A stretch of DNA of 61,092 bases from Planctomycetota bacterium (GTDB lineage Bacteria > Planctomycetota > Phycisphaerae > Phycisphaerales > SM1A02): NCBI GenBank assembly GCA_016873255.1, contig VGXR01000011.1, positions 1 through 61,092 on the forward strand. The letters run 5' to 3'. Shown piece by piece: positions 2,595 to 8,140 of this stretch. The translations under genes and the position numbers were made by a program. The first letter of the stretch is position 1. Each line of letters opens with the position of its first letter. The notes under the pieces are model-generated. The model saw only the letters and a program-made list of their open reading frames with translations, did no database searches and was not told where the DNA came from.

Positions 2595-2954
2595 GACGGC
2601 GAGCGCTCGGCGGCGCGGATCTTCAACTGCATCGGCCCGGGCATGAGCGTGCGCGACACGGTCGACCCGATGATCGGCTCGATGCTGCGCTCGGGCGCCG
2701 CGGTCGCGGACCCGGTGGGCCTCGGCCTTCGCACGGACGAGGCGGGTCGCCTCGTGCGGTCCGCGGGCGACGTCGACGAGCGCATGCACCTCGTCGGCGC
2801 CCTCCGCCGCGGCGACCTGTGGGAGAGCACGGCCGTCCCGGAGCTGCGCGTGCAGGCGGAGGCGGTCGCCCGCGCGCTGTCCGGCCTCGCCCGCACGCCG
2901 GCGAGGCCCGCCGAGGCCCCGCACTCCGAGGGTGTCCCGGAGGGCTGCGGCTGA
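2595..2954 (+). pseudogene. 3' fragment of a FAD/NAD(P)-binding oxidoreductase
   Basis: About 119 codons read as the C-terminal end of the FAD-NAD(P)-binding protein family, with FNCIGPGMSVRDTVDP followed by GLGLRTDEAGRLV, HLVGALRRGDLWESTAVPELR and a helical tail. In that family this segment closes a protein of roughly 450-600 residues. Here the dinucleotide-binding core and the rest of the N-terminus are absent, because recognisable sequence starts at about 2595, right after a hairpin. An internal ATG at 2643 exists, but the remaining piece has no complete domain. The stop overlaps the nfo start (TGATG at 2952-2956), so this was probably the first gene of an operon with nfo before truncation. 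Confidence 0.7.
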
Positions 2955-4828
2955 TGCTCGTCGGCAGCCACCTCAGCATCGCGGGGGGCATGCACCTGGC
3001 CATCGAGGCCGCGGTGCGGCTGGGGCTCGACTGCGTGCAGGTCTTCACCAAGAACCAGCGCCAGTGGAAGGTGAAGCCCCTGCGGCAGGACGAGGTCGAC
3101 GCCTTCCGCGCGGCCGTCCGGGCGGCCGGTTGGGACCGCCATCCCGAACGCCGGCTCGTGAGCCACAACAGCTACCTCGTGAACCTCGCGTCGCCCCTCC
3201 GCGCGATGCGCGCGCGCAGCCGTGCGCTGCAGGTCGAGGAGATCGAGCGCTGCGAGGCGCTCGGCATCCCGTCGTGCGTCATGCACCCGGGCGCGCACCT
3301 GGGCACCGCGGGCGACCCGCGCGACGAGGCCGCGGGCATCAAGCGACTCGCCGCGGAGCTCGACGCGATCCACCGCTCGACGCGCGGCTGTCGCACCGTC
3401 ACGTGCATCGAGAACACCGTCGGGAGCGGCACGAACCTCGGCGGCCCGCTCGAGCACCTCGGGCGTATCCGGGCGTCGGTCGCGGACCCCGATCGCGTCG
3501 CGTTCTGCATCGACACGTGCCACGCGACCGCCTTCGGCCACGATGCGTCGACCCCCGCGAAGGCGCGTGCGTTCTGGTCGCATGCGCGCAAGGCGCTCGG
3601 CGCGGGCACGGTGCGCGTGATCCACGCCAACGACTCGAAGGGCGCGCTCGGATCGCACCTCGACCGGCACGAGCACCTGGGGCGGGGCGCCTGTGGGCGC
3701 GCGTTCTTCGCGTCGATTGCGAACGCCGCCGCCTTGCGCCACGTGCCGATGGTCATGGAGACCCCGAAGGAGGGCCGGTTGCGCGGGCGCGACCCCGATC
3801 GGGCGAACGCCGCATGGCTGCGCGCGTTGGCGCTCCTCATGGCCGCGGCGCTTCCCATGCTCGCGATCGGCGGCTGCCGCCCGTGGGCCAAGCCCGAGAG
3901 CGAGGTGGCCGCGATGCGCGCGGGAACGGCCGTCGAGCCCACGCCCGAGGAGGCCGACCGCATGCGTCGGGCGCAGGCCGTGGCGCAGCGCGGCGACTAC
4001 CAGCAGGCGCTGGTCGAGTTCCGGTCGATCCTCGCCGAGAACCCGCGCTTGGTCGACGCGCAGCTCGCGGTGGGCCGCACCACCATGGCCCAGGGCGACC
4101 TGCGCGCCGCGCAGCGCTCATACGAGGCCGCCATCCGCGCTGACCCGCGCAATGTGGACGCCCAGGTGGGGCTCGCGGGCGTGCACGCCGCGGCGGGCCG
4201 CCCGGACGATGCGATGAAGTGCTACCGGCAGGCGCTGGTGATCGCGCCCGCCGACCTGCGCGCGGTGCGCGGCGTGGCCGACATGCTCGAGGTCACGAAC
4301 CAGTCGTCCGCGGCGCTTCCCTTCGTTGAGCGGCTGTGCGCCGACCCCGGCGCCGATGCCGACACGTGGACCCGGCTCGGCCAGGCGTACCTGCGCGCGG
4401 GCCGCAACGCCGACGCGACCGCGGCATTCGAGGAGGCCGTGGCGCTCGGCGAGGTGGGCCAGCCCACCATGGACGGCCTCGTGGCCGCCTACGCCGCCGA
4501 GCTCCGCTACGTCGAGGCCGCGAGCGCCGCGGGCGAGTACGCGCGCCGCTGGCCGACCGCCGCGGCCAGCGAGCGCGCCGCGTGGCTGGCGTTCCGCGCG
4601 GGCGACTACGGCCGGGCCATCGCGGCCTACCGCGCCGCCGCGCAGCAGGACCCCCGCAGCATCAAGGCGTGGAACGGCGTGGGCGTGTGCGCGCTGAACG
4701 CGTGGATACTTAGTGACCGGCTCGACGGCGCCGCGCGCGAGGAGGCGCGCGGGGCATTCGAGCGCAGCCTCGCGATCGAGCCCGCGCAGCCGCAGGTCAC
4801 GAAGCTGCTGCAATCGTGGGCACCGTGA
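2954..4828 (+). CDS. nfo: Endonuclease IV fused in frame to a TPR lipoprotein
   Basis: One 624-residue frame holds two proteins. Residues 1-290 are endonuclease IV, an AP endonuclease of base excision repair, complete with the expected metal ligands: H71, H111, E153, D187, H190, H224, D237, H239 and E269. The family normally ends near residue 285. Here the frame continues without a stop into a hydrophobic stretch with a lipobox-like LAIGGC (C308) and then tetratricopeptide repeats to the end (residues 325-620), resembling TadD-type TPR lipoproteins. An internal ATG at 3839 or TTG at 3779 could start the second half separately. As written, a cytoplasmic DNA-repair enzyme carries an export signal in its middle. 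It could be a genuine fusion, two genes sharing a frame through a lost stop, or an assembly error. The start is fixed by TGATG overlap with the upstream fragment. Confidence 0.85.
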   Translation: MLVGSHLSIAGGMHLAIEAAVRLGLDCVQVFTKNQRQWKVKPLRQDEVDAFRAAVRAAGWDRHPERRLVSHNSYLVNLASPLRAMRARSRALQVEEIERCEALGIPSCVMHPGAHLGTAGDPRDEAAGIKRLAAELDAIHRSTRGCRTVTCIENTVGSGTNLGGPLEHLGRIRASVADPDRVAFCIDTCHATAFGHDASTPAKARAFWSHARKALGAGTVRVIHANDSKGALGSHLDRHEHLGRGACGRAFFASIANAAALRHVPMVMETPKEGRLRGRDPDRANAAWLRALALLMAAALPMLAIGGCRPWAKPESEVAAMRAGTAVEPTPEEADRMRRAQAVAQRGDYQQALVEFRSILAENPRLVDAQLAVGRTTMAQGDLRAAQRSYEAAIRADPRNVDAQVGLAGVHAAAGRPDDAMKCYRQALVIAPADLRAVRGVADMLEVTNQSSAALPFVERLCADPGADADTWTRLGQAYLRAGRNADATAAFEEAVALGEVGQPTMDGLVAAYAAELRYVEAASAAGEYARRWPTAAASERAAWLAFRAGDYGRAIAAYRAAAQQDPRSIKAWNGVGVCALNAWILSDRLDGAAREEARGAFERSLAIEPAQPQVTKLLQSWAP

Positions 4829-4860
4829 GGCCGCGCTCCGCGCGCCGTGCGCCGCGTGCC

Positions 4861-4866
4861 TATCCT
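4861..4866 (+). promoter_or_regulatory. TATCCT -10 box for queF (leaderless pattern)
   Basis: TATCCT lies six bases before the queF ATG, with no Shine-Dalgarno between, so transcription should begin at or near the start codon. Confidence 0.5.
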
Positions 4867-4872
4867 GTCTTG

Positions 4873-5241
4873 ATGCCCGACGCCGCGCTGCTCGAATGCT
4901 TCCCGTCCCCGACGGACTCCGCCTTCGTCATCGAGCACGTGAACGAGGAGTTCACGAGCGTGTGCCCCAAGACCGGGCACCCGGACTTCGGCCGCGTGAT
5001 CGTCAGGTACCGCCCCGCGAAGCGCTGCGTCGAGCTCAAGAGCCTGAAGCTCTACCACCAGAGCTTCCGCAACGAGGGTATCTTCTACGAGGCCGTGACG
5101 AACCGCATGCGCGACGACCTCGCCGCAGCGATGGAGCCCGCGTGGATTCAGGTCATCACCGAGTGGAAGGGTCGCGGCGGCATCCACAGCCGCATCACGG
5201 CGACGTCGGGGCCGGTGCCGCCGGAGTGGGCGCGGGGATGA
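4873..5241 (+). CDS. queF: NADPH-dependent 7-cyano-7-deazaguanine reductase
   Basis: Reduces preQ0 to preQ1 in queuosine biosynthesis for tRNA modification. The 122-residue product is a short, single-module QueF. The catalytic cysteine is C31 in TSVCPKTGHPDF, with the conserved aspartate D38, and the QueF motif ELKSLKLYHQSF follows, then a C-terminal WKGRGGIHSRI segment. B. subtilis QueF is about 165 residues; this one has a short N-terminus and C-terminus but keeps all core motifs. The start at 4873 is preferred because TATCCT lies six bases upstream. Its 3' end overlaps the convergent 981-residue gene by 47 bases. No other queuosine gene is in the window. Confidence 0.93.
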   Translation: MPDAALLECFPSPTDSAFVIEHVNEEFTSVCPKTGHPDFGRVIVRYRPAKRCVELKSLKLYHQSFRNEGIFYEAVTNRMRDDLAAAMEPAWIQVITEWKGRGGIHSRITATSGPVPPEWARG

Positions 5242-8140
5242 CCATGGGGGCCGCGCCGGGGAAGCCCGGCGGCAACCCGGCGGGCATGCGCCGCGGTGCG
5301 CGCGGCTGAAGCTGCGGGATCTCCTTGGCCTGCTCCGGGGTGAGCACGGCGCGCAGCCGGCGCAGCGTGCGCGCATCGAGCTCGCGCCGTTCGAAGAACG
5401 CGTCCGACAGCATCCGCCACTCGCCGGTTATCGAGTCCATGCCCGTGCCCTCCTCCGAGTCCATCGCGGCATCCATGCGCGAGGCCTCCGCGATCATCAT
5501 CTCGGCGATGGCGTCGCATGACGCGCGATGGAGGGACGCGTGGTCGTTCCGGAGGGCGTCGAGCTGCGCGCGCTGCGCGCCGGACAGGTCGGCGAGCCCC
5601 CGCGCTCGGTCGACCGCGGGCAGCGCGTCGCTGCGGTCGCGGTAGGCCGACGGGACCGAGAGCGAGTACCACGCCGATCGGAACGCGCCGCGCATCAGTT
5701 CGGGCAGCGCGCCTTCCGCGGCGTCGCGGCCCGCGACCGACTGCTGCGATACGGCCTGACGTGCCTTGCCGAGGCGACCTTCCGTCTCGGCGCGCCGCTC
5801 CATGGGCTCCTCGTCGAACAGGAACGCCTTCTGTGCGCCGTCGTCCGACTGCATGGCACGCCGCATGTTGGCCACATCGGCGCGCTCGAACTCGATGAGC
5901 GCCACGGACTCCTTGCGCACCGCCGCGCGGTTCGCCTCGATCGCCGCGAGCGCCGCGGGCGACCACGCCTCGAGCGCGCGTCCGGCCGCCTCGATCGCCG
6001 CGGCGTCCGCGCCCGATGCCGCCAGCGCGTCCGCCGGCTCGACGAACAGCCGCAGGCCGCTCAGGTTGAAGCCGCCGCCGGTGCCCGGGTAGTGAAGCGC
6101 ACGGGCGCGCGCTCGCGCGCGTCGCTCTTGCTGGGCCTGCACCGCCTCGGGGCGCGGCGTGCCGAGGGCTGCCACCGCGTCGATGACCGCGTCATCGAGC
6201 GTGCCGAGCTGTTCGGTCCACTGGTCGATGAGGCCGACCGCCTCGCGGATGTCCGCGAGCGGCACCTCCGGGCGCTGCGGCGGAAGTCCCGGCGCCTGCG
6301 GAAGGTCGGGCATCGGCCACGCCACCGCGGCACCGTCGAGGAGCGACCGGATCCGCGCGCCGAGCTCGTCGTCGCTCGCCTTTGAGCGGTCGCGGTAGTC
6401 GCGCGCCACCTGGGCGAGCACGCCCTCGTCCGCAGCGACGCCCAGCGCCGAGGCGATGCGACGCACGTCGTCGTCGGTCATCGGGGGCGGGATGCCCGCA
6501 CCGGCGAGCGCGTGCCGTTCCCAGAAATCATGCACCGCCTCGGCCTCGGGGAGGGGGGGGAACATTTCGGCGACGTCGCCCATGTCGCCGCCGAAGTCGA
6601 TCGAGACGTCGTCGGCCGAGCCGGTGGCGCCGACGATCGTCACCTGGTTCGAGACCATGCCCTCGAGCGCATCGCCGGTCGCGATCGCCACCGCACCGCC
6701 GGCCTCGCCGGCGTCCGGCGCGTCGTCGGCGACGGCCATCTCCACGTTCGCGCCCCCGGCGTCGCCCGATTCCCCCGACTGGACCGTCACGGTGCTGCTG
6801 AATGCGATGCTGACGCCGGTCGCGAGCGACGGGCCGCCCGGGCCCGGTTCGCTGCCGGGAAGGCCCGGTTCGGCATTCGGGCCGAGGTCGAGCATCATCC
6901 CGCCGCCCTTGAGGGCCTGCGACGGCTCGGCGTTCGCGAGGTGGAAGTCCTTGTTCGCCGGGTCAAGCGCCGCGAGCGCCTGCCACGCCGTGCGGTCAGC
7001 CGCGGTGCGCGCCTCGACGAGCTCGGCCGGTGGGTGACCCATCGCATCAGCCTCATGGAGCACCGCCTCGAATGAATCGATGATCCGGAGCGTCGCTGGC
7101 CACCATGCCGCCCACCACGCATCACGCACGCCCTCGAGCGCCGTGCGCCGGTCCGCGTTGGTTTCCCTTCGAAGGAGCTGGCCGATGGCGCGGCGCGGCG
7201 ACTTCGAATCGGCGCTCATGGGCCAGATCGCCCGTGCCGCCGCCGCCTTCGCGTCCTGGAGCGCCGTGCCCGTGAGCACGCCCTCGAGCGCCGCCAGCGA
7301 CTCGCGCTGCACCCGCGAGGCCTGCATCAGCGCCTCGCGCTGCACCCGCGCGGCCTGCATCCGCGCCTCGCGTGCCTGCGTGCGGGTCGCGGTCACCCTC
7401 GGATCCGAGTCCGGTGCGCCAGCCGCCTCGGCCATCGCGAGCAATCGCTCCGAGCACGCATCCGCCAGCCGCACCAGCGCATCCGCCAGCCGGTCGAGCG
7501 ATCCCGCGAGCGCCTCATGCGCACGGGCCACGTCCGTGCCGTCGATCGCCGCCGCGTTCACCGCGGCCACGGCGTCGGAGACCACGATGCCCGTGTTGGA
7601 CCCGAGGAAGCCGGACTCTGGCGCCGTCGTGCGGATCACGCGCAGCCGCGCCACGCGGCGCTCGTGCAGCAGGGCCGGCTGCTGCTCGGGCCGTGCGATG
7701 GCGCCGAGCGACGCGAACAGGTCGTCCACCTGGGCAAGCAGCGACGTGCGCAGCGCGCGCATTGCCGCGCCCCGTGCCGCGACCGCCTCGCGCGATGGCT
7801 CGAAAAGCCCCACTTTCCGTGCCGCCGCGTCCGCGGTGCGCTTCGCCTCGAACATTCGCGCCTGCGCGTCGTCGAACATCACGTCCGCGGTGGTGCGCTG
7901 CGACGGGTCGAACCCGACCGCCTCGGCCACGCCGTCGAACTCGCGCCCGCTCATCACCACGCGGGAGCGGCGATCCTCCCTGCCCGGGAGCGCGATCTCC
8001 ACCTGCGCGGACGACGGTGCCGCGGGCATGGCCGCGGCCGCGGCGCCGAGCGCGAGGCACATGCGTGTGGCCCCGCCAAGGAGGGATCTTCGTGCGCGCC
8101 GTGCGGCGGCGTCGAAGGTGGTCGGGAATCCGTGGTCCAT
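5195..8140 (-). CDS. Large secreted helical protein, function unknown
   Basis: A 981-residue protein with an N-terminal export signal: basic ARRARRSLLGG, a hydrophobic stretch, then a likely cleavage after PSSAQ near residue 46. The rest is Ala/Arg/Glu-rich and mostly predicted helical. It includes an acidic, Gly/Asp-rich central part (roughly residues 430-530) and a Pro-rich tail. Two LTxEQ-like helical segments, one near residue 110 (ARPEQQPAL) and one near the C-terminus (LTPEQAKEI), vaguely recall LTXXQ periplasmic proteins, but I do not assign a family. It begins 27 bases after the truncated GntR gene and is probably co-transcribed with it. Codon use matches the neighbours. I am confident that it is coding, not of what it does. 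Confidence 0.75.
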   Translation of the reverse strand: MDHGFPTTFDAAARRARRSLLGGATRMCLALGAAAAAMPAAPSSAQVEIALPGREDRRSRVVMSGREFDGVAEAVGFDPSQRTTADVMFDDAQARMFEAKRTADAAARKVGLFEPSREAVAARGAAMRALRTSLLAQVDDLFASLGAIARPEQQPALLHERRVARLRVIRTTAPESGFLGSNTGIVVSDAVAAVNAAAIDGTDVARAHEALAGSLDRLADALVRLADACSERLLAMAEAAGAPDSDPRVTATRTQAREARMQAARVQREALMQASRVQRESLAALEGVLTGTALQDAKAAAARAIWPMSADSKSPRRAIGQLLRRETNADRRTALEGVRDAWWAAWWPATLRIIDSFEAVLHEADAMGHPPAELVEARTAADRTAWQALAALDPANKDFHLANAEPSQALKGGGMMLDLGPNAEPGLPGSEPGPGGPSLATGVSIAFSSTVTVQSGESGDAGGANVEMAVADDAPDAGEAGGAVAIATGDALEGMVSNQVTIVGATGSADDVSIDFGGDMGDVAEMFPPLPEAEAVHDFWERHALAGAGIPPPMTDDDVRRIASALGVAADEGVLAQVARDYRDRSKASDDELGARIRSLLDGAAVAWPMPDLPQAPGLPPQRPEVPLADIREAVGLIDQWTEQLGTLDDAVIDAVAALGTPRPEAVQAQQERRARARARALHYPGTGGGFNLSGLRLFVEPADALAASGADAAAIEAAGRALEAWSPAALAAIEANRAAVRKESVALIEFERADVANMRRAMQSDDGAQKAFLFDEEPMERRAETEGRLGKARQAVSQQSVAGRDAAEGALPELMRGAFRSAWYSLSVPSAYRDRSDALPAVDRARGLADLSGAQRAQLDALRNDHASLHRASCDAIAEMMIAEASRMDAAMDSEEGTGMDSITGEWRMLSDAFFERRELDARTLRRLRAVLTPEQAKEIPQLQPRAPRRMPAGLPPGFPGAAPMVIPAPTPAAPAPTSP

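Follow-up and report, generated by a model that had tools for sequence, protein, structure and literature searches.

The window analysed here, a stretch of 61,092 nucleotides from a Planctomycetota MAG, contains on its forward strand a single open frame (2954..4828; 624 amino acids plus TGA) in which endonuclease IV (Nfo), a lipoprotein signal and a TPR domain follow one another without an internal stop codon. The start of the frame overlaps the stop codon of the upstream gene in the sequence TGATG (2952..2956). The stop-free passage from a nuclease through a hydrophobic segment with C308 into TPRs had been pointed out in a preliminary description of this DNA, and it was borne out in our analysis, with the TPRs starting at about residue 331. 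No other frame of this kind, with a lipoprotein signal buried inside it, turned up when the window was scanned.

The N-terminal domain (residues 1-292; 2954..3829) was assigned by profile searches, alignment and structure comparison. In the window protein, Pfam AP_endonuc_2 (PF01261) spans residues 17-291, and the nfo model TIGR00587 spans residues 2-273 with 225.5 bits against a curated cut-off of 129.65. Foldseek matches this part to the E. coli Nfo structure 1qtw with an E-value of 1e-20 and a TM-score of 0.92-0.94 over the known structure. All nine metal ligands claimed earlier were recovered in the alignment to 1qtw (H71, H111, E153, D187, H190, H224, D237, H239 and E269), and all are invariant in an alignment of 34 fused homologues. 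By its sequence, the N-terminal half of the frame is an endonuclease IV, and AP endonuclease activity is predicted for it. The fold and the nine ligands are thus shared with the known enzyme family (TIGR00587, 1qtw), whereas in the solved structures bacterial Nfo stands alone, in chains of about 250-310 residues, and here a signal and a TPR lipoprotein continue without a stop.

Residues 291-307 (3824..3874) form an uncharged hydrophobic run of 17 residues, the putative h-region of a former signal peptide. It leads to the lipobox cysteine C308 (3875..3877; IGG before the cysteine), the predicted site of acylation by Lgt, with the predicted Lsp cut immediately before it. The following linker (residues 309-330; 3878..3943) is of low confidence and probably disordered (pLDDT below 50 at 306-323), and the remainder (residues 331-624; 3944..4825) is a predicted periplasmic TPR solenoid, recognized by TPR models from about residue 331, AlphaFold2 and Foldseek. 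In the AlphaFold2 model (34 sequences; mean pLDDT 88.9, pTM 0.50), the endonuclease IV barrel is followed by a continuous helix 281-304 (3794..3865), in which the last barrel helix runs into the hydrophobic segment (pLDDT 94 at 281-290 and 70 at 291-300), then by the low-confidence stretch 306-323 and the TPR solenoid; the relative placement of the two domains is unreliable. Both domains match PDB structures of their respective types, endonuclease IV and TPR, in Foldseek. The window sequence has the pattern of a lipoprotein signal, namely a positive n-region, a hydrophobic run and a lipobox cysteine with G, A or S at position -1, and this signal lies inside the open frame instead of at its N-terminus, with no conserved internal start. 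The n-region is weak in the whole genus, consisting of one arginine (R290) adjoining the run, and the residue at -3 in the window is isoleucine.

The fused frame occurs in 11 genomes of the window's genus, two copies being present in the window's own MAG (12 sequences of 66-97% identity, three of which end at contig edges and all of which cover the junction). All 12 have exactly the same number of residues between Nfo and TPR, with no indels at the junction, and the hydrophobic run is uncharged in every one of them despite strong divergence of its sequence. Among the 14 genomes of this genus that were checked, a second, stand-alone nfo was found in none; nfo was not seen in two, and a third yielded just a fragment of the gene, ending before the junction. 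The exonuclease III gene xth (TIGR00633) was not found in any of the 14, while the same model matches 9 of 14 control genomes, so that no type of AP endonuclease other than the fused Nfo was detected in these 14 genomes. With xth not found and nfo exclusively fused at every covered junction, the nuclease has to remain functional in the cytoplasm.

The segment around nfo-TPR is present twice in the MAG. The tail of an oxidoreductase gene, nfo-TPR and queF occupy positions 2613-5241 of the window and positions 4118-6785 of a second locus (L149, contig C4), with 77.7% DNA identity between the two. On C4 the oxidoreductase gene is of full length and is preceded by purL, purQ and a dehydrogenase gene, purL being single-copy in the MAG. 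The window copy retains no more than roughly the final 114 codons of the oxidoreductase, adjoining purM; this truncated C-terminal piece of an FAD/NAD(P)-binding protein (2613-2954) lacks a proper 5' part and ends in the TGATG overlap with nfo. The match to L055 and L056 begins at about 2600, near the start of this piece. The two copies of the segment reflect a duplication or transfer of the block, or else a mixed bin.

Across the family we collected 107 distinct nfo-TPR pairs, of which 48 are fused and 59 split. These calls were made from frames recomputed from the sequence; the frame length reported by the search was set aside, as it is long also in a split case (G031/L035). The fused pairs comprise 12 from the window's genus, 12 from group g39, 4 from g17 and 20 from a clade of g42, g6 and g43, inside which two pairs are split; all loci spanning the junction in g42, g39, g17 and g6 are fused. 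In the genome collection, the neighbours that bear names are MAGs of Planctomycetes, many of them labelled Phycisphaerae or Phycisphaerales and several from lakes, and the fusion-bearing group is one of lake and marine Planctomycetes. The comparison of nfo and the next gene in relatives, proposed in the preliminary description, spoke against an error and against a recent loss of the stop.

The spacer, that is, the stretch between the Nfo helix and the hydrophobic run, is absent in the window's genus and measures 5-45 codons in the other fused groups. In the 35 fused sequences outside the genus, none of 589 spacer codons is a stop in the frame of the fusion, compared with 17 and 13 of 554 when the codons are read in the two alternative frames; base shuffling gives an expectation of about 22 stops. 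These sequences are related, so that the counts overstate the sample, and they had been chosen for being fused. A stronger fact is the absence of any stop or frameshift at the junction in whole groups, for it was seen in every member of g42, g39, g17 and g6 covering this position. The linker is fast-changing, with a rate of differences at codon positions 1 and 2 about two- to fourfold that in the domains.

The cysteine is likewise maintained. All 48 fused proteins have G, A or S at position -1, although the cysteine in this set had been chosen by a script seeking a lipobox; the fairer evidence is therefore that C308 is invariant in unguided alignments of the genus set and of the 34 fused homologues. 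Position -3 is more variable, being leucine in 31 of 51 split and 14 of 48 fused proteins. In fused proteins of g39 and g42 (L082, L079 and L065, for example) this position is frequently taken by N, S, H or D (NTAC, NVGC, HVGC, SIGC, DVGC), leucine being usual in the split relatives. The recognition of the lipobox site may be relaxed in some fused lineages, and because of the degenerate -3 residues cleavage there is less certain. Genes for Lsp and Lgt are present in the genome; the main Lgt match is on contig C55, and a second, weaker match to the Lgt family (87 bits) lies on contig C46 at 1477-2130.

These observations are best explained, with a probability that we put at roughly 0.6, by a conserved gene fusion producing one precursor, whose buried signal would insert with the nuclease inside and be lipidated and cut before C308; the fusion, its conservation and the loss of internal starts are observed, and topology, acylation and cleavage are inferred. 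The open frame is conserved and the internal starts are not, and since the membrane signal of the lipoprotein was left in mid-chain, a single chain is probably synthesized and divided into its two halves at the membrane. The N-terminal endonuclease IV would fold in the cytoplasm, and the former signal of the TPR lipoprotein, directly after the last Nfo helix, would insert as an internal signal (N-in, C-out) and carry the TPR half across the inner membrane. Lgt would then lipidate C308 and signal peptidase II cut before it, yielding a normal TPR lipoprotein and a cytoplasmic Nfo with a hydrophobic tail, which would stay membrane-bound until trimmed. In the TIM-barrel topology the last helix ends on the far side of the barrel from the active site, and DNA could therefore still be bound despite a membrane contact at that end. 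The objection raised in the preliminary description, that a repair nuclease with an internal export and lipidation signal makes little sense as one protein, overlooks the ability of the buried signal to part the two halves at the membrane.

Other explanations were weighed against this one. The possibility of two ordinary genes in the true genome, with an error of assembly or a stop lost recently, is of practically negligible probability and is ruled out by conservation: the same frame is seen in many separately assembled genomes over wide divergence, including other genera, and the second copy in the MAG is fused too. The earlier suggestion of a lost or misread stop is therefore abandoned, and that of a real fusion gains support from all 12 sequences of the genus and from other genera that are fused as a whole. 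An uncut fusion, in which the hydrophobic helix would hold Nfo at the inner membrane and the TPRs would be permanently periplasmic, is improbable, the more so of the two alternatives that leave the frame intact. It would agree with the predicted continuous helix 281-304, with the degeneracy of position -3 in several fused lineages and with the greater length of the hydrophobic run in fused than in split proteins (median 17 versus 15; rank-test p about 6e-6, uncorrected for kinship). On the other hand, an invariant cysteine preceded by G, A or S throughout the fused set is expected mainly if lipoprotein processing is still in use, and both processing enzymes are encoded.

Somewhat less unlikely is the formation of two products from the one frame, namely full-length Nfo-TPR or a tailed Nfo, and a TPR lipoprotein initiated separately at TTG 3779, ATG 3755 or a similar codon. 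The best candidate start is TTG 3779 (residue 276), which lies five bases downstream of AAGGAGG at 3767-3773 (whole element 3767..3781). To this extent the internal initiation envisaged earlier has a good signal in the window and may occur there; however, neither of the starts named for it, TTG 3779 and ATG 3839, is conserved. The AAGGAGG falls in the codons of a conserved TPKEG motif, and among the 12 genus sequences the TTG is found only in the window (L001) and its 97% relative L006. The in-frame codon of M268 (3755..3757), from which the signal would be 40 residues long, is ATG in 11 of the 12 and CTG in L014. In the latter, none of the codons ATG, GTG and TTG occurs between -43 and -12 relative to the cysteine, and in L009 and L007 the only start codon near the signal is the ATG at -40 (besides a GTG at -44 in L009), so that no start near the signal is conserved through the genus; the fused relatives L027 and L042 have no ATG, GTG or TTG at all from -45 to -12. 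The split relatives, in contrast, have a TPR lipoprotein with an ATG of its own, which mostly lies 14-35 codons ahead of the cysteine: an ATG in this range is present in 50 of 57 split and 19 of 48 fused sequences and in none of the 12 from the window's genus, and an ATG with a Shine-Dalgarno match of at least four bases in 22 of 57 versus 2 of 48, although a tree-aware test of start-codon loss has only three to four independent fused/split pairs, too few for power. A separate start is favoured by g17, where an ATG is retained 19-25 codons ahead of the cysteine (about 40% of all fused members hold an ATG in a usable place), and by sister genus g18, where an overlap of the type ATGA points to a coupled restart. 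With separate initiation, however, stops and frameshifts should be tolerated in the long and fast-changing spacers of g42 and g39, yet none is seen. Two further starts were rejected: ATG 3839 (M296; 3839..3841), 12 residues before C308, gives no charged n-region and is CTG, TTC or GCG elsewhere, and an out-of-frame start near 3812 (ATGGCTGCG) opens a frame that, read by eye, gives no signal-like sequence.

Regarding the origin of the fused frame, the maximum-likelihood tree of the two domains (quick method, 107 pairs) requires at least four changes between the fused and split states, compared with a mean of about 35 for shuffled labels, and does not tell gains from losses of fusion. The differences in junction anatomy among the groups favour separate fusions, and fusion probably arose several times from overlapping or adjacent genes. 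The likely starting point is the arrangement in g18, in which the nfo stop overlaps the start of the TPR gene as ATGA in another frame; the TPR lipoprotein in this sister genus shares the CRxWxKP start after the cysteine, and that of split Phycisphaerales relatives, just after nfo, has the same TPR domain. A small indel could bring such overlapping, coupled genes into one frame, lipoprotein processing would render the fusion harmless, and the unused start would then decay, which would make the fusion hard to reverse.

In the literature collection searched, no report of an Nfo-TPR fusion or of an internal lipobox was found. The closest likeness is the FbcH precursor of Bradyrhizobium, in which one bacterial frame encodes two proteins, cytochrome b and cytochrome c1, split by signal peptidase at an internal signal. 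The frame described here would work likewise, with a predicted cut at its internal signal; in FbcH, however, the two parts both belong to a membrane complex as subunits, with a signal of the non-lipoprotein type, whereas here a cytosolic repair enzyme is combined with a lipoprotein signal for signal peptidase II.

If the proposed processing is correct, this family would provide a natural and repeatedly formed bacterial polyprotein, in which lipoprotein processing stands in for a stop and a start codon and a cytosolic DNA-repair enzyme is joined to an exported protein. The fusion would show how neighbouring genes can be joined harmlessly across the membrane boundary and be locked in this state afterwards. 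Annotation of the frame solely as endonuclease IV, or solely as a TPR protein, is misleading. More tentatively, the only detected type of AP endonuclease in these bacteria could be the head of a lipoprotein precursor, tethered at least transiently at the inner membrane, an arrangement that would have evolved several times in one family and been locked by decay of the internal start. This raises the question of whether base-excision repair is partly membrane-bound in these bacteria.
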